Positions 2,294 through 33,560 of a stretch of 64,000 nt of DNA are shown in pieces (positions within the stretch are counted from its first letter, which is position 1; each line of letters starts with the position of its first letter). The position numbers were made by a program, and so were the translations under genes. The notes under the pieces are model-generated. The model made no database searches. It saw only the letters and a program-made list of their open reading frames with translations, and was not told the origin of the DNA. The stretch is from Bacillota bacterium (GTDB lineage Bacteria; Bacillota; UBA5301; Bu52): positions 1 through 64,000 of the forward strand of contig JADBKO010000004.1 of assembly GCA_014896355.1 (NCBI GenBank), in the 5' to 3' direction.

Positions 2294-5116
2294 TCACAAC
2301 ACCGGTTGGGAATCCGGCACCGGGCTGCGCCGGTTTTCCCCTGCCAAGATCTCGGCCAGCTGGCGGCGCAACTGCGCCACCACCGGTTCGGGCAGGGGCC
2401 GGAACTCCGGCATGTTGCGCAGGCTCCCGCCGCTTTCCCCGGCGGCAGGCGGCGCGCCGGTCCCCACCTGATGGCCCGGTCCGGGTTCTCTGGCTCCCCC
2501 TTCCCCCCGGCCCGGGGACCAGGCCGGGAAATTCCCCGTGGCCGCAGCGATCCCGGGGCCGGCCGGCATCTGCCCAGGCCGGGCCGCCGCAGCGGCGGCC
2601 GTGTCAACGGCTGTCCCCGGCTCAGGCAGGGAGATCCTGCCCAGCAGGGCCAAGAGCAGCAGACGAGCCGCTTCTTTATCGGGGATTTGCTCCCGGGCGC
2701 TCACATCCGGGTCGCCCATAGCCGCCGGCGGCACCGGAGCGCCTACACAGCTGGGGCAGCCGTCCCGGCAGCTGCAGCCCTCAATGAGCTCCAGGGCTCC
2801 CTGCAGGACATCCGTCAGCTTCCCCCAAACCCTCTGGGCAAACCCTGCGCCGCCCGGAAAGCGGTCGAACACGAACACCGCCATGGCTCCCTGGGGAGCC
2901 ATCTGCACGGCGGTGCTCACATCCAGGGGGTCGCACATGGCAAAAAGGGGCACCACGCCGGTGATGGCATTGGCCAATCCCACCATCCCCTGCAGCGGGT
3001 CCCTTCCGCGGATCTGCACCGCAGCCGCCACCAGCGCCGACGGCGTCAGCCAGAATCCCGTGGTGCCCAAAAGAAGCGGCGGCAGGGAGAGCCTTCCGAA
3101 GCCCAAGCTCTCATTGCTGTAAAAGCGGATCTTTTTGAACATATACGTCAGGTAGCGCACTTCCAGCTGGCCGAAACGGGCTACCCAGGTCCATTCCGGC
3201 GCCGCCACGCCGGGCGCTCCCTGCAGCGGCGCGCCCTCAGCGGCAAAACTTCCGCTGCCGTACCGCATCTCTTCCTCCTGAACCACCTGCACCTGGCGGT
3301 CTGTAACAGCCTGGGTGTAGTAGTCCAAATCCGCCGCATGCACGTAGGCGGTTTTCTCCGCCAGATCCAGCTTCTCCACTAGGTAGGTCTGGCCGTTGTG
3401 GAGATAAACGGCTTCCGGGTGCACCAACATGAAAGCCGTCCACTCATCCACCGTGCCGATGACGCGGCTGCCTGCCACGGCGGGCCCGGCGGCAGGCTCC
3501 GGCCGCACCCGGCGCCTGCCGCCGGATTCCATGACCCCCACCTCACCGGCGGCGATGCCGGTCCGGCCCGGAACCTCCAGGATCGTGTAGGTGCCTGCCG
3601 CGGCTTGGCGCAAATTGACGCTGTCCGCGGGGAATCCTCCGCCGTGGAAGTACAGCCGTGATCCTCTCTCGGCCAACTGCCCGTTCTCCAGCAACAGCTC
3701 CGCCACGGCCGGAGCGTAGACCCCAAGGCCAGAGAGCTCCTCCCGGGCCAGGGGGATCTCCAGTGCCGCCGCCCGCAGCTGGGGCAGCAGAAGATGGGCA
3801 TTTCCCGGATCGATGACGGCAGCCTCCGGGCTGCGCCCGAACAAATAGTCCGGGTGCTGCATCAGATACTGGTCCGTAGGCGATGAATGGGCGATCAGAA
3901 CCGCCAGACTGGCGTTGCGGCTGCGACCGGCGCGGCCAGCTTGCTGCCAGGTGCTGGCGATGCTGCCGGGAAAGCCCACCAGAATGGCGGCATCCAGCCC
4001 TCCCACGTCGATCCCTAGCTCCAGGGCGTTGGTGGTGGTGACGCCCAGAAGCTCTCCCGAAAACAACCGGCGCTCGATTTCCCGGCGTTCCTCCGGCAGG
4101 TAGCCGCCCCGGTAGGAATGCACCGCATTGCGCAGGCCGGCGCCGTCCTTCGCCAGGTCCTCCTGGACATAGCGGTACAGCACTTCCGCCACGGTCCGGG
4201 TGCGCACGAAGGTGATGGTCCCGAGGCCCCGGCGCACCAGCGAGGCCATGAGGGTCCGGGCCTCCATGTTGGCACTGCGCCGCTCGCCTCCCGGGCCCAC
4301 CCGGGGAGGATTCCACAACACGAAAACCTTGCGCCCCCGGGGGGAGCCGTCACCATCGATCAGCGCCAAGTCCTGACCCGTCAGTTGGCGTGCCAACTCC
4401 AACGGATTGCCGATGGTGGCGGAGGTGGTGAAAAACTGCGGCCGGACACCGTAGTGGGCGGCAATGCGCCGCAGACGCCACAGAACCAGCGCCACATTGG
4501 CGCCAAAAATCCCCCGGTAGACGTGGATCTCATCCACCACCACGAAGCGCAGGTGCGAGAAGAAACGCACCCAAGTGGGGTGGCGGGGCAGGATACCGCT
4601 GGAGAGCATGTCCGGGTTGGTCAGGATGAGCCTCCCCTCCTGGCGCAGGCGCCGCCGGGCCTGAGGCGGGGTGTCCCCGTCATAGGTGCCCATGGGTATG
4701 GCCAGGCCGGCGGCACGCACCAGCTGCTCCAGAGAGCGCAGCTGGTCCTGGGCCAGTGCCTTCGTGGGGAAAAGGTACAGCGCCGTGGCAAGAGGATCTG
4801 CGGCTAGGGTTTCCAATACGGGCAGATGATAGCAAAGGCTCTTGCCGCTGGCGGTACCCGTCACGACGACCCAGCCCCGGCCTTCCCTGGCAAGCTCCAA
4901 AGCCTGGGTCTGATGGGAATACAGGGCCTCGATGCCGCCAGAAGCCAGGGCCTGCTGCAAAACCGGCGGCAAAGGCTTGTCCAGCGGCACATAGCGGGCT
5001 GCCCGGGCGGGGATCTCCTCCACGTGCACGATCTGGCCGTGGTAAGACGGCTGCGCCTGCCAAAAGGCCAGCAGCTCCTCGGGGCTGAAGGACGCCTTCC
5101 TACCGCCTTCGCTCAT
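2294..5116 (-). CDS. DEAD/DEAH-box helicase with DUF1998-type C-terminus (YprA/MrfA-like)
   Basis: GTASGKSLCYHLPVLE, VVVDEIHVYRG, QQAGRAGR and CSCRDGCPSCVGAP. Starts MSEGGRKASF; ATGA overlap with rpe. Confidence 0.9.
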   Translation of the reverse strand: MSEGGRKASFSPEELLAFWQAQPSYHGQIVHVEEIPARAARYVPLDKPLPPVLQQALASGGIEALYSHQTQALELAREGRGWVVVTGTASGKSLCYHLPVLETLAADPLATALYLFPTKALAQDQLRSLEQLVRAAGLAIPMGTYDGDTPPQARRRLRQEGRLILTNPDMLSSGILPRHPTWVRFFSHLRFVVVDEIHVYRGIFGANVALVLWRLRRIAAHYGVRPQFFTTSATIGNPLELARQLTGQDLALIDGDGSPRGRKVFVLWNPPRVGPGGERRSANMEARTLMASLVRRGLGTITFVRTRTVAEVLYRYVQEDLAKDGAGLRNAVHSYRGGYLPEERREIERRLFSGELLGVTTTNALELGIDVGGLDAAILVGFPGSIASTWQQAGRAGRSRNASLAVLIAHSSPTDQYLMQHPDYLFGRSPEAAVIDPGNAHLLLPQLRAAALEIPLAREELSGLGVYAPAVAELLLENGQLAERGSRLYFHGGGFPADSVNLRQAAAGTYTILEVPGRTGIAAGEVGVMESGGRRRVRPEPAAGPAVAGSRVIGTVDEWTAFMLVHPEAVYLHNGQTYLVEKLDLAEKTAYVHAADLDYYTQAVTDRQVQVVQEEEMRYGSGSFAAEGAPLQGAPGVAAPEWTWVARFGQLEVRYLTYMFKKIRFYSNESLGFGRLSLPPLLLGTTGFWLTPSALVAAAVQIRGRDPLQGMVGLANAITGVVPLFAMCDPLDVSTAVQMAPQGAMAVFVFDRFPGGAGFAQRVWGKLTDVLQGALELIEGCSCRDGCPSCVGAPVPPAAMGDPDVSAREQIPDKEAARLLLLALLGRISLPEPGTAVDTAAAAAARPGQMPAGPGIAAATGNFPAWSPGRGEGGAREPGPGHQVGTGAPPAAGESGGSLRNMPEFRPLPEPVVAQLRRQLAEILAGENRRSPVPDSQPVL

Positions 5117-23090: not shown

Positions 23091-24302
23091 TCACTGCAGG
23101 TACTGCAAGGGATTGACCAGTTTCCCCCGGACCTTCATGCGGAAATCCAGGTGGGGCCCGGTGCTGCGCCCGGTGCTTCCCGACAGGGCCAGCACCTGCC
23201 CGGTGCGCACGACCTGCCCCACCCTCACCAGAATCCGGGAGAGATGGCCGTAGTAGGTTTCCACATCCTGTCCATGGCTCAGAACCACGGTCCAGCCGTA
23301 CGCCCCCAGCCAGCCGGCGTAGTTCACCGTACCGGCTGCGGCGGCCACCACCCGCGTACCCACGGGAACCGCGATATCCAGGCCTTCGTGAAACTCATAC
23401 CCGCGCCCCACCGGGTTTGGGCGCCAGCCGTAGCGGGACGAGACACTGCCGCTGACGGGCCAGGCCAAGCGCAACGGTGCGGCGGCAGCCATGGTCGTTG
23501 TGCGGCGGCCGTCCACGGAGGCCCGCGGGGCCTCCGTGGACGGCGGAATGGTCAGAACCATGCCGGGAAGGATCAAATCTGGATTTGCCAGCCCGTTGAG
23601 GGCCTGTAATGCGGACAACGAGACCCCGTGGCGCTCGGCGATGGAGGCCAGAGTATCCCCCCATTTCACCTGGTAACGGGTGGGCGGGGTCATGGCACTG
23701 CGCCAGCCTCCGCTTCCGGCCCGGGGCACCAATAGCAGCTGGCCTACACGGATGCGATCGTCGGCCAGGCCGTTGATGCCTCTGAGATGCCCTACGGTGC
23801 TGCCGTAGGCCCGGGCCAGGGAGAATAACGTCTCGCCGCTGCGCACGAGGTGCCATAGGACCAGTTTGCGCAGCTGGGCCACAGTGGCAGGCCCGGCCTT
23901 TCCGTCCACCTGCAGCCCGTGACTCTTTTGAAATTGCCGGATCGCGTCTCGGGTCTCACCTCCGAACCGCCCGTCCAACGACAGGTCGAACCCCAGGCTG
24001 ACAAGCAGGCGTTGCAGCTGCCAGACGTCCTTCCCCTGAGCGCCCAAAGCCAGCACCCGTTGTCCAAGGGGCCATAGGCTCGGGCTTTGCAGGGGCTGCG
24101 CCTGGGCAGCCGGGTGCAGCCAGTGGCCGGTCCAGGTCCAAAGGGCCGTCGCCCCCGACGGGACATGGCCCGCCCGCAGGCTTCCCTGCCCCTCCGGCCA
24201 TGGCGCCCCTGCCAAGGCGGCGGCCCAAAGTGCCAGACCGCCTGCGAACCAGCGGGCCATCCGCCGCCCCTGTCTGCCAGTAGCAAAGGGCCACAGCAAC
24301 AT
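23091..24302 (-). CDS. Secreted M23 peptidase with peptidoglycan-binding and LysM domains
   Basis: PG_binding_1 (VWQLQRLLVSLGF...GGETRDAIRQFQ), two LysM repeats, M23 core (HEGLDIAVPVGTRVVAAAAGTV, HLDFRMKVRGKLVNPLQYL). Confidence 0.9.
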   Translation of the reverse strand: MLLWPFATGRQGRRMARWFAGGLALWAAALAGAPWPEGQGSLRAGHVPSGATALWTWTGHWLHPAAQAQPLQSPSLWPLGQRVLALGAQGKDVWQLQRLLVSLGFDLSLDGRFGGETRDAIRQFQKSHGLQVDGKAGPATVAQLRKLVLWHLVRSGETLFSLARAYGSTVGHLRGINGLADDRIRVGQLLLVPRAGSGGWRSAMTPPTRYQVKWGDTLASIAERHGVSLSALQALNGLANPDLILPGMVLTIPPSTEAPRASVDGRRTTTMAAAAPLRLAWPVSGSVSSRYGWRPNPVGRGYEFHEGLDIAVPVGTRVVAAAAGTVNYAGWLGAYGWTVVLSHGQDVETYYGHLSRILVRVGQVVRTGQVLALSGSTGRSTGPHLDFRMKVRGKLVNPLQYLQ

Positions 24303-24422: not shown

Positions 24423-25949
24423 CTACCCGGGCGCCTCCTCCCCCTCTGACTCCTCGCGCAGGCGCATGTGCGGAAAGAGAATCACGTCCCGGATGGAGGC
24501 CGAGTCGGTCAAAAGCATCACCCAACGGTCCACACCGATTCCCAGGCCGCCGGTGGGCGGCATCCCGTATTCCAGCGCCGTCAGATAGTCCTCATCCATC
24601 ATGTGGGCTTCTTCGTCACCACGCTGGCGGGCTGCCAGCTGGGCTTCAAAGCGCTGTCTCTGGTCCAAAGGATCGTTTAGCTCACTGAACCCGTTGGCCA
24701 TCTCCCGCCCGTAGATGTACGGCTCAAAACGGTCCGTCAAAGAGGGGTCGGAATGCTTCCGTTTGGCCAACGGGGAAATCTCCACCGGATAATCGGTGAT
24801 GAACACCGGCTGAATGAGCTTCGGCTCCACAAAACGCTCAAACAACTCGTTGATGACCTGCCCACGGGTGGCATTGGGCGGCAGATCCACACGCAGCCGC
24901 GCAGCGGTGGACCGGGCTGCCTCGTCATCGGCCAGCATGGCGGCACGCACACCGGCATAGCGCTCCAAGGCTTCCAGCATGGGCACCCGGGGCCAGGGCG
25001 GGGCCAGGTCGATTTCCGTCCCCTGGTATTGAATCTTCAGCGTCCCCCGTACCTTCTCGGCCACGGTGGCCATGAGTTCTTCGGTGATCGCCATCATGTC
25101 GTTGTAGTCCGCATAGGCCTGGTATAGCTCCATGCTGGTGTATTCCGGGTTGTGTTTGATGGAGATCCCTTCGTTGCGAAAGTTCTTGCCGATTTCGAAG
25201 ACCTTTTCCAACCCCGCCACGATCAGCCGCTTCAGGTAAAGCTCCGGAGCGATGCGCAGGTAAAGATCCATATCCAGGGCATTGTGATGGGTTTTGAACG
25301 GCCGGGCATTGGCTCCGCCTGCGATGGGATGCAAAGAGGGAGTCTCCACCTCCAGAAAGCCCCGGGCTGTGAGAAACTCCCGGATGGAGGCGATGATGCG
25401 GCTACGGGTCACGAAGACCTGGCGTACCTCGGGATTCACGATCAGGTCCAGGTAACGCTGGCGGTAGCGCAGTTCCACGTCTTTGAGCCCATGCCACTTC
25501 TCTGGAAGCGGCCGCAGGGACTTGCTCAAGAGCTGGAAGGAATCCACCTGCACCGTGATCTCGCCGCGGTGGGTCCGGAACAGGCGGCCCCGGACCCCGA
25601 TGATGTCACCCAGGTCCAGCTTCTGGAAATCCTGGTACCCCTGCTCGCCCAGCTCGTTGAGGCGGCCGTAGAGCTGGATACGCCCGGAACGGTCCTGAAG
25701 GTGGGCAAAACTCGCCTTGCCATGAGCACGGAAACTCACGATGCGACCGGCCAGGGCCACCTGCAGCTGATGAGCCGCCTGCTCGGGGCCCTGGGACGCC
25801 TCCAGACGGGAATACTCCTGCTCGGCATCGGCAGCCAGGTGGGTGCGCTCAAAGCGCTGGCCAAACGGGTAGATGCCTTGCTTCTTCCACTGCTCCAGCT
25901 TCGCCAAACGCGATTGCACTAAAGGGTTTTCATCCAGTACGGGATTCAT
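24423..25949 (-). CDS. lysS: Lysyl-tRNA synthetase, class II
   Basis: [50 protein letters not shown] and [14 protein letters not shown]. Confidence 0.97.
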
Positions 25950-25977: not shown

Positions 25978-26457
25978 CTACGCCAGCCGAACCTCTTCGA
26001 TCTTATACTCGATCTTGCCGTCCGGAACGGAGACCTGCACCACATCCCCCACATGGTGGCCCAGCAGTGCCTGGCCCACCGGAGATTCATTGGAGATCTT
26101 CTGCTCTGCCAGATTCGCTTCGGCGGAGCTGACCAGGGTGAATTCCAAGACCTCGCTGTTGCCCAGGTCCCGAATCTTCACCCGGGAGCCCAGGGTCACC
26201 TTATCCTTGGAAACATCGCTGCTATCCATCACCCGCGCATTGCGCAGCATCTTCTCCAGGGTGAGGATTCTCCCCTCGATGAACGCCTGCTCGTTCTTGG
26301 CGTCGTCGTATTCGGAATTCTCGCTGATATCGCCGAATTCCAGCGCCTGCTTGATGCGCTCCGCCACTTCCCGCCGGCGCACGGTTTTGAGCTCTTCCAG
26401 CTCCTGCTCTAACTTTTGCAGGCCTTCCTGAGTAAGGATGATCTCTTTCTCTGCCAT
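25978..26457 (-). CDS. greA: Transcription elongation factor GreA
   Basis: [55 protein letters not shown]. Confidence 0.97.
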
Positions 26458-26640: not shown

Positions 26641-27816
26641 TCATGACGTGCCTTCCGGCACCGGCAGAGGCTGGCGCTTCCGGGCAGTATTGGCGGCATC
26701 GGACGCGAGATCCTCCGCCTTCCCCTGCAGCGGAGCGGGTGCCTGCGAGGCGAACCCTGCCAGGCGCCGTACCCGCTCGAAAGTCTCGTCGCTGACGGGA
26801 CGTTCGAAGCTGCGCAGGCCGGCCAGCTGAAACCCATGGCGGCGGGCCAGTTCACTGATCTCCTGAATCCGCTCCAGATCCAACACCCGGCCCAGGCTGA
26901 AGTTTTCGTAGCGCCCCTCCAGAGCCAGGATCATGGTTTCCGCCATGCAGGCATAGGAGGTGCGGGGCGGAAAGCCAAAGTCCAAGTGGAAATCCACGTC
27001 GCCGGGGACCTGCACCACGCCGCCCTCGAAGACCAGGACGTCCGGGCGGGCCGCGGCCACCTGCACGGACACGTCCCGGGGGCGGGCCACGTCGCAGACG
27101 ATGGCGCCCCGCTTCAGGTCCTCGGGTTGGATCACGGCGTCCACGGCGCTGGTCACGGCCACCACCACATCCGCCCTGGAGAGGGCGCTGCGGATGTCCG
27201 TGGAGACCTCCACGCTGCCGGGGCCGTCCTTTAGGACCCGTTCCGCCGCCTCCTCCAGTTTGGCCAGCCGGCGGCCCACCAACGTCAGGCGGCTCACCTG
27301 CGGCGCCAAGAGCCGGGAGGCAGCCAGGCCCACCGAGCCGGTGGCGCCCAGGACCGCCGCCTGGCAACCCTTCAGGTCCACACCGAGGCGCCGGGCGGCC
27401 AGCTCGATGCCTTGAATGGCCGTGGCCACGGTATAGGAATTTCCGGTGGTCACCGCAATATCCACCGCTTTGGCCACGCTGACCCCCGCGTCCCCCACTA
27501 CGGAGGTGAAAGCCCCCAGGCCTACGATGCGGGCGCCCAGCTGTTGAGCGCGCCGGGCAGCGGCGATGATCTTGGCCATGACTACCGGCTCCGGCAAGCT
27601 CACCATCTGGTGGGCAGTCAGCGGGCAGCCCACAAACCAGCCTTCCGCCTCCTTCCCGGTTCGGGAGCGGATGCCGGTGATATGGGACGCCGTAACCGGA
27701 GGCAGGAAACGCAGAGCCGGTTCCACCCACGCTCCGGGAAGGCGGCGCGTGATCTTGAACTTACGCGCTACGTCCTCCACAGACAGTGGGTGGATAATGA
27801 AAGCGAAATTCTCCAA
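26641..27816 (-). CDS. Long-chain acyl-ACP reductase (AAR)-like NAD(P)-binding protein
   Basis: Resembles cyanobacterial AAR: GGFTS-like LGAFTSVV, TTGNSYTVA, VLGATGSVGLAASRLL, FEGGVVQVPGDVDFHLDFGFPP, ACMAETMILALEGRYENFSLGR, ARRHGFQLAGL. TTG start. Confidence 0.75.
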   Translation of the reverse strand: MENFAFIIHPLSVEDVARKFKITRRLPGAWVEPALRFLPPVTASHITGIRSRTGKEAEGWFVGCPLTAHQMVSLPEPVVMAKIIAAARRAQQLGARIVGLGAFTSVVGDAGVSVAKAVDIAVTTGNSYTVATAIQGIELAARRLGVDLKGCQAAVLGATGSVGLAASRLLAPQVSRLTLVGRRLAKLEEAAERVLKDGPGSVEVSTDIRSALSRADVVVAVTSAVDAVIQPEDLKRGAIVCDVARPRDVSVQVAAARPDVLVFEGGVVQVPGDVDFHLDFGFPPRTSYACMAETMILALEGRYENFSLGRVLDLERIQEISELARRHGFQLAGLRSFERPVSDETFERVRRLAGFASQAPAPLQGKAEDLASDAANTARKRQPLPVPEGTS

Positions 27817-27911
27817 TCTTCTCTTCTCCCTCCGTTTGAGTCAACGCCGAATGGCCGCGGCACCGCCTGCATCAGGCTATGGCGCCGGTAGGAGCGGCAC
27901 CCGCCATCGTG

Positions 27912-28889
27912 TCAGGCTTCGGCGGCGAACGCCGGCGCCGGGTTCAGGATCTCTTGCCGGGGCCGGAAACCCAGTTGGTCCAGCAGCCGGTCATACTCTT
28001 GGGGCCTGAGAGAGCCGTGGCCACCCGCTGCGGCCACCAGCAGGGCCTCCATGACGTTGGTGCCGAACGATCGCCCCTCCAGCTCCGGCGTGGTGGTGAT
28101 CAACTGCCAGACTCCCCGCCGTTTCAGGTCCGCCACGTCCTCCTGGGTCACGGTGTTGGTGAGAATGATCTTTCCGGGCAGTTCCAACGGCGCGTAGCGG
28201 CGGATGTAATGGAAATCGCCGGCGATGATATCCGCCTCCTGGAACACCCGGGGAAACTTGGGCGTAACGATCTCCTGAGACTGGCCTGTGGGATAGAGGT
28301 ACTTGAACGGCAACTGCACCAGCAGAGGCATCAGAACAGCCGCTGCCGCCCGCAGCGTTCCCAGGCTGCGGATGGGGATGGGCACGCCCACCCCGAACAT
28401 GAGATCGCCGAAGGTGACCCGGCAGCCGTGTTCTACCAGGGCTTCACTGAGGCCGAAGCGGTCCACTCCCACCACCACCAGGGCCTTGAGCCGGCGGAAG
28501 TCCATGCCCTGCCGGGCCAAATGATGGACGACACGGCGCTCCAGGGTGTCTTTCAAACCGGATCCATCCACGATAGGGCTGATCCGGGCCGCCCTGGCCA
28601 TGCGCTTGGCTTCGCGGATCACATAGCGCCGGCCCCCTGCCACCAGGTAGAGGTCGATCCCCCCCATGCCGAATGCCGCCACCTGGCCGTCCAGCTGCCG
28701 GATGAGCTCCACGGCCTTGTCCATGCTGCCGTCGGTGCCGATGCGCTCCACGCGGAAATGCTGTCCCAAAAGCTCCAGGTCCACAGTGTGGTTGCGGCGG
28801 GACGATCCGATGCTGACGCTGACCACTCGTTTCACATCCCGGCTGCCTTCCGCGCCGGAATGCAGGTCATCCCCTGCGGACATGCGCAA
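27912..28889 (-). CDS. Conserved protein of a family I recall being annotated 'quinate 5-dehydrogenase' in some Bacillota; function unknown
   Basis: KRVVSVSIGSSRRNHTVDLELLGQHFRVERIGTDGSMDKA, AFGMGGIDLYLVAGGRRYVIREA; co-oriented with the AAR-like gene. Confidence 0.6.
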   Translation of the reverse strand: MRMSAGDDLHSGAEGSRDVKRVVSVSIGSSRRNHTVDLELLGQHFRVERIGTDGSMDKAVELIRQLDGQVAAFGMGGIDLYLVAGGRRYVIREAKRMARAARISPIVDGSGLKDTLERRVVHHLARQGMDFRRLKALVVVGVDRFGLSEALVEHGCRVTFGDLMFGVGVPIPIRSLGTLRAAAAVLMPLLVQLPFKYLYPTGQSQEIVTPKFPRVFQEADIIAGDFHYIRRYAPLELPGKIILTNTVTQEDVADLKRRGVWQLITTTPELEGRSFGTNVMEALLVAAAGGHGSLRPQEYDRLLDQLGFRPRQEILNPAPAFAAEA

Positions 28890-28950
28890 ATGCCCCCTCT
28901 ATTTAGAGTCCAGGCCGGCTTCAGCCGCCGCCGGCCCGCAATCCGGGTAT

Positions 28951-29526
28951 TCACGGCCGTCGCTGTGCGGGATCCTCGCTGCGCCCGGACCTCGCTGAAC
29001 CTTTCAGCGCCCGCAGAACTTGGCGCAACTCCTCCGGGTCCAGCGTGCGATCGCCGTGGATGGGTGAAGCCCCGAGGTTGATCCCCACGACCTCCATATC
29101 CCTGCCTACCAGGGCGTCGGCCAAGCGCAGGCGCAGGTCCGACCCAATCATCACCAGCGCGTCAAATTGGTGCAGGTAGGCGATGAGCCGGAGGATCTCG
29201 TTGAGGACCTCCATGCTGCTTTTCTCCTGGACCCAGCGCCACCGCTCCTCGTCGGTCATGAGCAAGGTGAACTCTACCCCCTCCTCCCGGCAGACCCGTT
29301 GGAGCTGCGCAGTGTTGCCAAGGGGGAAGCCGATCACGGCCAGCCTCTGGCCCCGCCGGATCTCCCCCAGGGACTCCAGGCGGGAGACAAAGGTCCGGTC
29401 CACGCCGGCGGCTTGCGCCGCCTCCTGTTGGGATAGCCCTTGGGCCCGGGCGTTGAGAATGCGGTCGATGGCTTGGTCGATCTTGGCCCGGCTGAGGAGC
29501 TTGTCACCCACGCGGATGAATTCCAA
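28951..29526 (-). CDS. HTH transcriptional regulator of the AAR-like cluster
   Basis: N-terminal HTH (AQGLSQQEAAQAAGVDRTFVSRLESLGEI) plus an alpha/beta C-terminal domain. TTG start preceded by AAAGGGG. Confidence 0.75.
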   Translation of the reverse strand: MEFIRVGDKLLSRAKIDQAIDRILNARAQGLSQQEAAQAAGVDRTFVSRLESLGEIRRGQRLAVIGFPLGNTAQLQRVCREEGVEFTLLMTDEERWRWVQEKSSMEVLNEILRLIAYLHQFDALVMIGSDLRLRLADALVGRDMEVVGINLGASPIHGDRTLDPEELRQVLRALKGSARSGRSEDPAQRRP

Positions 29527-29558
29527 GCGGCCTGGCCCCTTTCGCAGGCATCCAGAAG

Positions 29559-29582
29559 TATGTGCACATTCTTGTGCACATA
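29559..29582. promoter_or_regulatory. Candidate operator: TATGTGCACA-TTCT-TGTGCACATA
   Basis: Perfect 10-bp inverted repeat with 4-bp spacer; each arm contains the palindrome TGTGCACA. Covers the predicted transcription start. Confidence 0.75.
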
Positions 29583-29585
29583 TTC

Positions 29586-29614
29586 ATTCTAGCACGAGGG
29601 GCCGGTCTAGGCAA
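29586..29614 (-). promoter_or_regulatory. Sigma-A-like promoter of the HTH-regulator gene
   Basis: Minus strand TTGCCT, 17 bp, TAGAAT. Confidence 0.65.
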
Positions 29615-30614
29615 GATCAGATAGGAGAGAACGAAGCAGAGCCTCCAGGTCGGGATAGGTGGCAATCTGGTTGATTTGCTGGCGGATACGGGCGGCACCG
29701 GGCAGCCCCTTCAGGTACCAGGCCAGATGCTTGCGCATCTCCGGAACCGCCACGCGTTCCCCCTTTTGGGCCACGGCCAGGCGCAGGTGGCGCAGGGCCA
29801 CGGAGAGCCGTTCCTGGGCGGACACGGGCGGCAACAGGGAGCCCGTACGGAGAAAGTGCTGGACCTCCCGGAAAATCCAGGGCGCCCCCAGCGCCCCGCG
29901 GCCGATCATGATGCCGTCGCAGCCCGTTTGTTGCCACATGGTCAGGGCATCTTCGGGGGTGGCTACGTCGCCGTTGCCGATGACCGGGATCTGCAGGCGC
30001 TCTTTGACCCGCCGGATCAGACTCCAATCCGAATGGCCGCCGTAAAACTGGGAGCGCGTGCGGGGATGCAGGGTGATGGCTGCCACACCGGCATCCTGCA
30101 GGCGCTGGGCCAGATCCACGGCGGTGTCGGGTGCAGATTGGTCCCACCCGGAGCGCATCTTCACCGTCACCGGCGCATGCACCGCCCGCACCACCGCCGC
30201 AGCCACCGCCACGGCGCGGGCAGGGTCCTTCAAAAGCGCTGCCCCGTCCCCGTTGGCCACCACCTTGGGTGCAGGACAGCCCATGTTGATGTCCAAAAGG
30301 TCCGGACGCCACCGCTTCTCCACTCTGGCCGCAGCCTGCGCCATCACGTCCGGCTCGGAGCCGAAAAGCTGCACCGCAATGGGCCGCACCGCGTCGCTGA
30401 ACTCCAGCATCTCCTCCGTGTGGCGATTTCCGTAACACAAGGCCCGGGAGCTGACCATCTCCGTGAAAACCAAACCGCACCCGTAATCCTTGGCGATGAT
30501 GCGGAAGGCTTCGTCGCTGACCCCCGCCATGGGCGCCAGGCAAAGGGGGGGATCCACTCGTACCGAGCCGATGGCCAGGGGCTGCCAGAGTTGCGGGGCA
30601 GGGCTTTGCGGCAA
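29607..30614 (-). CDS. dusB: tRNA-dihydrouridine synthase
   Basis: LAPMAGVSDEAFRIIAKDYGCGLVFTEMVS, INMGCPAPKV, ITLHPRTRSQFYGGHSDW, GNGDVATPEDA. Confidence 0.94.
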   Translation of the reverse strand: MPQSPAPQLWQPLAIGSVRVDPPLCLAPMAGVSDEAFRIIAKDYGCGLVFTEMVSSRALCYGNRHTEEMLEFSDAVRPIAVQLFGSEPDVMAQAAARVEKRWRPDLLDINMGCPAPKVVANGDGAALLKDPARAVAVAAAVVRAVHAPVTVKMRSGWDQSAPDTAVDLAQRLQDAGVAAITLHPRTRSQFYGGHSDWSLIRRVKERLQIPVIGNGDVATPEDALTMWQQTGCDGIMIGRGALGAPWIFREVQHFLRTGSLLPPVSAQERLSVALRHLRLAVAQKGERVAVPEMRKHLAWYLKGLPGAARIRQQINQIATYPDLEALLRSLLSDLA

Positions 30615-32417: not shown

Positions 32418-33560
32418 TCACCGCACAAACTGTCTCGGGTTCGCGGGCTGGCCGTCCTTCCAGATTTCGAAGTGCAGATGGGGGCCGGTGGCGTTGCCAG
32501 ACATGCCGCTATAGGCGATGATCTGGCCTGCCTCCACCCACTGACCCGCCTGCACAGTGAGGCGGGAGTTATGTGCGTAGCGGGTTTCCAGGCCTCCCGG
32601 ATGCCGGATGCGGACCCAAAGGCCATAGGCGCCATACGCGCCCGCCTCTTCCACACGCCCGGCGGCGGCAGCCCGAACCGGCGAGCCGCTGCCGATGGCG
32701 ATATCCACGCCCTCATGGGAGCGGCCCCAGCGCCAGCCAAAGCCCGAGGTTACGTTGCGGCTGGCCACGGGCCAGAGAAGATACCTGCCCCCGCGGGAAG
32801 CCACACCGCCCCTCTGGGAGGGGGGTGGGCCCAGGGGCTTCGCCCCCGGCAAAAGAAGCAGCGTGCCGATGGGAACATGGTCTGGGTCGTTCAACCCGTT
32901 GGCCGCCACTACCCGTTGCTGGGCCACCCCGTAGCGCCGGCAAATGGCCCACAGGCTGTCTCCGGGCTGTACCCGGTACAAAACCCCGTCTTCTGCAGGG
33001 ACCTGGAGCTTCTGCCCGGGAAAGATGGCATCGGCGTCCGCCAGATGGTTGGCCCACACCAGGGTGTCGGTCTTCAGGCCCCAACGGCGCGCCAGAACCG
33101 TCAGATTATCGCCGGCCTGCACCACATAGGAGCGGACCACGGGCCGGCCCGGCGAAGTCTTGGCGCCGGCGGGGGCAGCTTGTCCGGACGTAGGTTGCGG
33201 TCCGGGCCGCGTAACCGCCTGCTTACCGGGCTCCGGCGCAACCTGCGGCGTCTTCCCTGCCGCGGCCTGTCCTTGGCCTGTGGCCTGCGAAGCCCCGGGC
33301 TCTCTAGTCCCCACAGATGGCTGGGCAGAAGGCCGGGGGTTCACAGCCCCGGCTTTCCCCTTGTTGGAGGCCGCAGGGCTCACCTGCGCCCCCCGGCCTC
33401 CCAGACGCGGCTCCACGGCAGTAAAGCCCACCACCAGCAGCGTGACGAAAAACGCTGCCGCCAGCACCCGCACGGGCCAGCGGCCTTCGGCCTTCCCCTT
33501 GTCTGCGTCCCGAAGGCTGCGGGATGCCCCCGGCTCCGGCGAGCCATCAGGCGTACCCAT
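32418..33560 (-). CDS. M23 peptidase with two LysM domains and one N-terminal TM
   Basis: LysM ([36 protein letters not shown]); M23 ([47 protein letters not shown]). Confidence 0.92.

Follow-up and report, generated by a model that had tools for sequence, protein, structure and literature searches.

Three genes lying side by side between dusB and greA-lysS in a Bacillota genome, which encode an HTH regulator, a middle protein (hereafter MID) and a reductase, appear to form the core of a regulon that would supply deep-branching Bacillota with long-chain amines as building blocks of a membrane lipid. These amines would most likely provide the alkylamine moiety of N-glyceroyl alkylamine lipids; we put the probability of this reading at roughly 0.6. 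The pathway could be identified because second copies of the operator that heads the cluster precede aminotransferase, aminotransferase-reductase fusion, synthase and fatty acid synthesis (FASII) genes. “The window” means here the whole stretch of 64,000 nucleotides that was analysed, whose relevant features are listed in Table 1.

The three genes are co-directional, on the minus strand, with dusB on one side and greA-lysS on the other, just as an earlier note on this DNA had described. That note also took the set to be inserted in an otherwise housekeeping interval; however, the order dusB-HTH-MID-reductase-greA-lysS is kept in most of about 110 loci (with genes called by simple ORF rules) from many families, and synteny across Bacillota families rules out a recent insertion. 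Indeed, the arrangement is conserved in dozens of these families, and the full gene order is seen in Moorella, Thermoanaerobacter, Tepidanaerobacter, and Limnochordales; in heliobacteria and on one Thermaerobacter contig, MID-reductase-greA-lysS is kept and no HTH gene is seen there. Neighbourhoods across Bacillota show that the three families are co-conserved, the point on which the earlier note had made its proposal depend. Two genes, one on each side of the region (23091-24302 and 32418-33560 of the window), look by eye as if they encode LysM plus M23-type peptidases.

Table 1. Features of the cluster and its surroundings, in window positions.
Feature	Position	Strand	Basis and remarks
sigma-A type promoter	29586-29614	minus	-35 TTGCCT, 17 nt, -10 TAGAAT; consensus match only
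Operator TGTGCACA-AGAA-TGTGCACA	29561-29580	minus	site conserved before the HTH gene throughout the phylum
HTH regulator gene	28951-29526	minus	ORF and Pfam
MID gene	27912-28889	minus	ORF, without Pfam family; preferred start ATG 28883 (codon 3 of the ORF as listed)
MID Asn278	28056-28058		set on reductase Cys290 by profile alignment
Reductase gene	26641-27816	minus	ORF and Pfam
Reductase NADP loop	27328-27348		GATGSVG
Reductase Cys290	26947-26949		aligns with acylated C294 of S. elongatus AAR
dusB	29607-30614	minus	Pfam; conserved upstream neighbour, outside the pathway
greA	25978-26457	minus	Pfam; conserved downstream neighbour, outside the pathway
lysS	24423-25949	minus	Pfam; conserved downstream neighbour, outside the pathway

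The pattern TTGCCT-17-TAGAAT of the putative promoter was found once, against 0.1 expected in shuffles. The promoter-overlapping palindrome said to head the cluster is present directly 3' of the -35/-10 pair, just past the -10 box, where it overlaps the likely transcription start; it has 0 mismatches and is the sole site of its pattern in the window at ≤3 mismatches (0.23 expected). Chance can hardly account for it, since this site, TGTRCACA-N4-TGTGCACA, scored as TGTGCACA-N4-TGTGCACA, precedes the HTH gene in 81 of 95 loci at ≤3 mismatches in 16 fixed positions, and in 78 of the 95 at ≤2; the controls gave 0.05% of shuffled upstream regions and 0/95 coding controls. Across 200 genomes, a site with ≤1 mismatch occurs in 91 of 125 genomes with the HTH gene and in 6 of 75 without (Fisher 1e-20), and a reversed control pattern is nearly absent; this association, like the exclusions reported below, is not corrected for phylogeny and counts the genomes listed. 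Other operator sites lie before a lone reductase in one locus and, in another, before a MID gene set apart from HTH. Sites also occur in genomes without the HTH gene (G034, G071 and G107). A site with 2 mismatches in the window genome (G000:C51:8569) falls within a coding sequence and was disregarded.

The HTH protein combines an N-terminal HTH_3 domain (26.9 bits against a Pfam cutoff of 23) with a Rossmann-like C-terminal domain (AlphaFold pLDDT 89.2); a whole-chain fold search returned no match below 1e-3 and no close structural match for the C-terminal domain, and a profile comparison with MID no similarity. We presume it to be an autoregulated repressor, because its predicted site abuts the -10 box: it would bind TGTRCACA-N4-TGTGCACA and repress its own operon together with scattered partner genes.

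Its sequence places the window reductase clearly in the AAR/PigE thioester-reductase superfamily, as an acyl-thioester reductase akin to AAR and the N-terminal part of PigE, which bears out the earlier description “acyl-ACP-reductase-like”: its best PDB matches are PigE (4e-39), then S. elongatus AAR (1e-30), and it has both the catalytic cysteine, Cys290, and the GATGSVG loop. It stays below the cutoffs of the long-chain acyl-ACP reductase model TIGR04058 (132.7 bits against 449.7) and, taken alone, of the NCBIfam PigE equivalog (239.4 against 850). Of 102 relatives of the reductase, 93 retain the catalytic Cys, almost all of them together with a GATGSIG-type loop, and most relatives have Arg at the positions of the NADPH arginines R189 and R314 of AAR; the roles of the acylated Cys, the GATGxxG loop and these arginines, as well as the production of fatty aldehydes by AAR-type enzymes, are established for AAR (PMC7089970).

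The cluster had also been called self-contained; however, the window genome has one other operator site, with a single mismatch (G000:C34:32421-32440), immediately upstream of a class-III aminotransferase gene on a different contig. This aminotransferase (L196:999-2411, the frame from the second codon on) matches Aminotran_3 at 7.5e-99, and its best PDB match is the aminotransferase half of PigE (4ppm, 5.3e-110). Since aminotransferase and reductase share the operator and both match PigE, we read them as PigE/TamH-like halves split over two contigs under one operator; PigE both reduces a thioester and transaminates (PMC8341465), and TamH makes fatty amines (PMC9594044). The notion of a small regulated metabolic or lipid module is thus retained as regards its own operator, its acyl-ACP-reductase-like enzyme and its co-conservation, and given up as regards its being self-contained or inserted.

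The same operator precedes lone aminotransferases in four other genomes and aminotransferase-reductase fusions in about 14; the fusion is the third cluster gene in two loci and lies elsewhere with the operator before it in six. In one locus an unfused aminotransferase-reductase operon follows the operator. No operator was found at the fusions of two genomes, G017 and G117. Intact reductase and fusion tend to exclude each other among the MID-carrying genomes listed, both being found in 2 and one only in 89 and 30, respectively (p 1e-12, ignoring phylogeny); two genomes with a fusion were inspected, and in both the reductase of the cluster has lost its Cys. When MID is elsewhere, the HTH gene stays beside the reductase or the fusion (three genomes). 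In Syntrophomonadaceae-like genomes, the place of the reductase is taken by a third gene without family match (L033:4335-5516 and four other loci), perhaps a decayed reductase. A DUF1285-type gene lies directly 3' of the fusion in two families (L130:4142-4555, L131:5348-5830). A Moorella species has the cluster and an aminotransferase 59% identical to that of the window genome; the aminotransferase genes of Moorella and Thermoanaerobacter have no operator upstream, and in about 15 MID-carrying genomes no amine-forming enzyme was identified.

In many genomes that have HTH and MID but no reductase, this operator is followed by a gene for an alpha-oxoamine synthase, in most cases accompanied by one for an alcohol dehydrogenase. 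The operator precedes such synthases in ten genomes; nine of the synthase loci are of one type, and L193 holds a different subtype. Their best PDB match is serine palmitoyltransferase (1.8e-91), with scores below the NCBIfam cutoffs for that enzyme. Among the genomes listed, 14 of the 31 MID genomes that lack a reductase have the synthase-type dehydrogenase, versus 2 of the other 121; this exclusion between reductase or fusion and dehydrogenase has p 1e-9, ignoring phylogeny. Threonine degradation (kbl-tdh) was rejected as the function of the synthase-dehydrogenase operon, the tdh models scoring far below cutoff. In two genomes (G024 and G104), FASII operons lie behind the operator: fabH-fabK-fabD-fabG-acpP-fabF, and fabZ and fabH-fabK-fabD-fabG.

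Several other gene associations were seen around these loci. Upstream of the synthase of G146 are a FlK-type thioesterase gene (L218:4910-5365) and a formate-tetrahydrofolate-ligase-like gene (3241-4899), a pair also seen in G170 (L220); in both loci they sit between two operator-like sites. A homologue of the regulon alcohol dehydrogenase (about 40% identity) is paired in the window genome with an aldolase-II-domain gene (contig C68, L226:2693-5372) and in L228 and L231 with a similar-looking neighbour, all three without a nearby operator. Finally, one genome carries a PlsY-type glycerol-3-phosphate acyltransferase fused to a reductase of the family (L227:2720-4525, G125:C28), with no operator; it adjoins an alcohol dehydrogenase of the type associated with alpha-oxoamine synthases.

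Because the partner genes, the replacement synthases and the FASII operons share the operator, the pathway is best described as acyl-ACP in and long-chain amine or amino-alcohol out. By analogy with AAR and PigE, the fatty acyl chain carried by ACP would be transferred to Cys290 of the reductase and reduced with NADPH to a fatty aldehyde, which the PigE-type class-III aminotransferase encoded on the other contig may, like TamH, convert to a primary amine; in reductase-less lineages, the serine-palmitoyltransferase-like synthase, usually with the alcohol dehydrogenase, would yield an amino-ketone or amino-alcohol instead. MID would act where the routes meet and might, at low confidence, attach a (phospho)glyceroyl moiety to the amine. 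As to the product, Bale et al. 2025 reportedly describe N-glyceroyl alkylamine lipids of Bacillota, for which, to our knowledge, no genes are known; our search of the open-access full-text literature, which was not exhaustive, found no report of such genes. We propose such a lipid because it is reported from Moorella thermoacetica (PMC13274423) and the genus carries the cluster; cluster and aminotransferase were seen in another species, M. sulfitireducens, so the predicted link between lipid and genes runs through one genus.

MID is the constant component in all variants of the pathway; 152 of 200 genomes sampled evenly across the phylum carry it, 28 of these without HTH, and none was found on a plasmid. 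Its median identity across families is 57%, versus 61% for LysS, 61% for GreA and 49% for DusB, a figure obtained on loci chosen as best MID matches, with 47-64% for orthologues in loci not so chosen. Divergent paralogues (about 33% identity; L112:8998-9825, L113:9004-9885) adjoin an sfsA-like gene and another with the motif GIGSxP...PHWPQxP, and the paralogue neighbourhoods revealed no function in common. MID itself has no match in Pfam, NCBIfam or PDB sequences. The label “quinate 5-dehydrogenase” mentioned for this family in the earlier note finds no support, as MID matches neither Shikimate_DH nor any NCBIfam model nor a PDB sequence; comparing 30 members with Pfam gave no consistent family.

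Among the PDB matches listed, the best whole-chain TM of the MID model (AlphaFold pLDDT 89.7) is with AAR (0.51/0.49, rmsd 7.2). Deep profiles of the MID and reductase families align collinearly over 218 columns in hhalign (pairwise E 0.002, probability 13%); shallow alignments gave a negative comparison. The deep alignment sets MID Asn278 on reductase Cys290 and MID Glu281 on Glu293, leaving MID without the catalytic Cys; it is also without GxGxxG, with GVDRFG instead. Model and profiles together lend modest support, without proving it, to the view that MID is a divergent, Cys-less cousin of the adjoining reductase, with a putative acyl-ACP-reductase-like two-domain fold.

What such a protein does is a more delicate matter. 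Because it is constant in all variants, MID may be the protein that couples amine and (phospho)glycerate, the weakest step of our scheme; the full proposal, in which the regulon is the N-glyceroyl alkylamine lipid pathway and MID an AAR-fold, amide-forming (phospho)glyceroyl-amine synthase that makes a glycerolipid-like backbone from glycerate and fatty amine, is therefore put forward tentatively. MID could also be a pseudo-reductase, that is, a non-enzyme serving the reductase as a chain-binding or structural partner: the reductase-like fold with Asn for Cys and no GxGxxG points that way, as does the Cys-less third gene that several lineages keep in the same place. The odds are nonetheless against it, as MID persists in genomes where no reductase was found, and about 50 positions are invariant among 30 MID sequences, many of them polar or glycine, which suggests a catalytic site.

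The product of the regulon might also be a small signal molecule, a fatty amine or an alpha-amino-ketone similar to CAI-1, or a secondary metabolite rather than a bulk membrane lipid. The characterised relatives PigE and TamH do serve secondary products, and CqsA, which synthesises CAI-1, is distantly related to the alpha-oxoamine synthases; we nevertheless consider this unlikely, as the presence of MID in so large a share of the genomes and the sharing of the operator by FASII operons suggest primary lipid metabolism, and Moorella is reported to contain an alkylamine lipid. Feeding of fatty aldehyde into ether or vinyl-ether (plasmalogen) lipids, with the aminotransferase link incidental, would fit the aldehydes given by AAR-type enzymes (PMC7089970), the single PlsY-reductase fusion and the ether lipids made by Bacillota (PMC13274423); it is very improbable, however, given that many lineages have the aminotransferase joined to the reductase in one protein, encoded next to it or placed under shared control with it, that plasmalogens are attributed to PlsA (PMC13274423) and that the alpha-oxoamine synthases that replace the reductase yield no aldehydes. 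The decarboxylating alpha-oxoamine synthases found as replacements and the co-regulated FASII operons point to synthesis and leave next to no room for a reversed pathway from long-chain amine through aldehyde to acyl thioester, for detoxification or catabolism, even if the HTH protein could sense an amine and class-III transaminases are reversible.

The regulon resembles several known systems without coinciding with any of them. The two halves of PigE, with TamH an enzyme of prodigiosin and tambjamine synthesis, are the best solved relatives of the window reductase and of the own-genome aminotransferase, and fusions in the TamH order occur in the same regulon; here, however, the genes are usually split, in a chromosomal regulon with HTH and MID and no pigment cluster, and the reductase falls below the PigE cutoff. 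Cyanobacterial AAR (TIGR04058) shares the catalytic Cys, the GATGxxG loop, the NADPH-binding arginines and whole-length similarity with the window reductase, which misses the cutoff of that model and has an aminotransferase as its partner, whereas the partner of AAR is an aldehyde-deformylating oxygenase. Bacterial serine palmitoyltransferase, of the sphingoid base pathway, is the nearest relative of the operator-linked alternative enzyme, which is paired with a dehydrogenase, but that alternative enzyme occurs only in reductase-less lineages, not in the window cluster, and below the NCBIfam cutoffs. FapR-type regulators couple fatty acid synthesis genes via a conserved palindromic operator; in the same manner, an HTH regulator here would tie lipid genes together by a palindromic operator, FASII operons of two genomes included, although protein (HTH_3 plus a Rossmann-like domain) and operator both differ from those of FapR.

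Two chemically different routes, reductase plus aminotransferase on the one hand and serine-palmitoyltransferase-like synthase plus dehydrogenase on the other, would thus be swapped under one regulator. Such a route exchange would make membrane chemistry predictable from the genome, and this prediction is directly testable.
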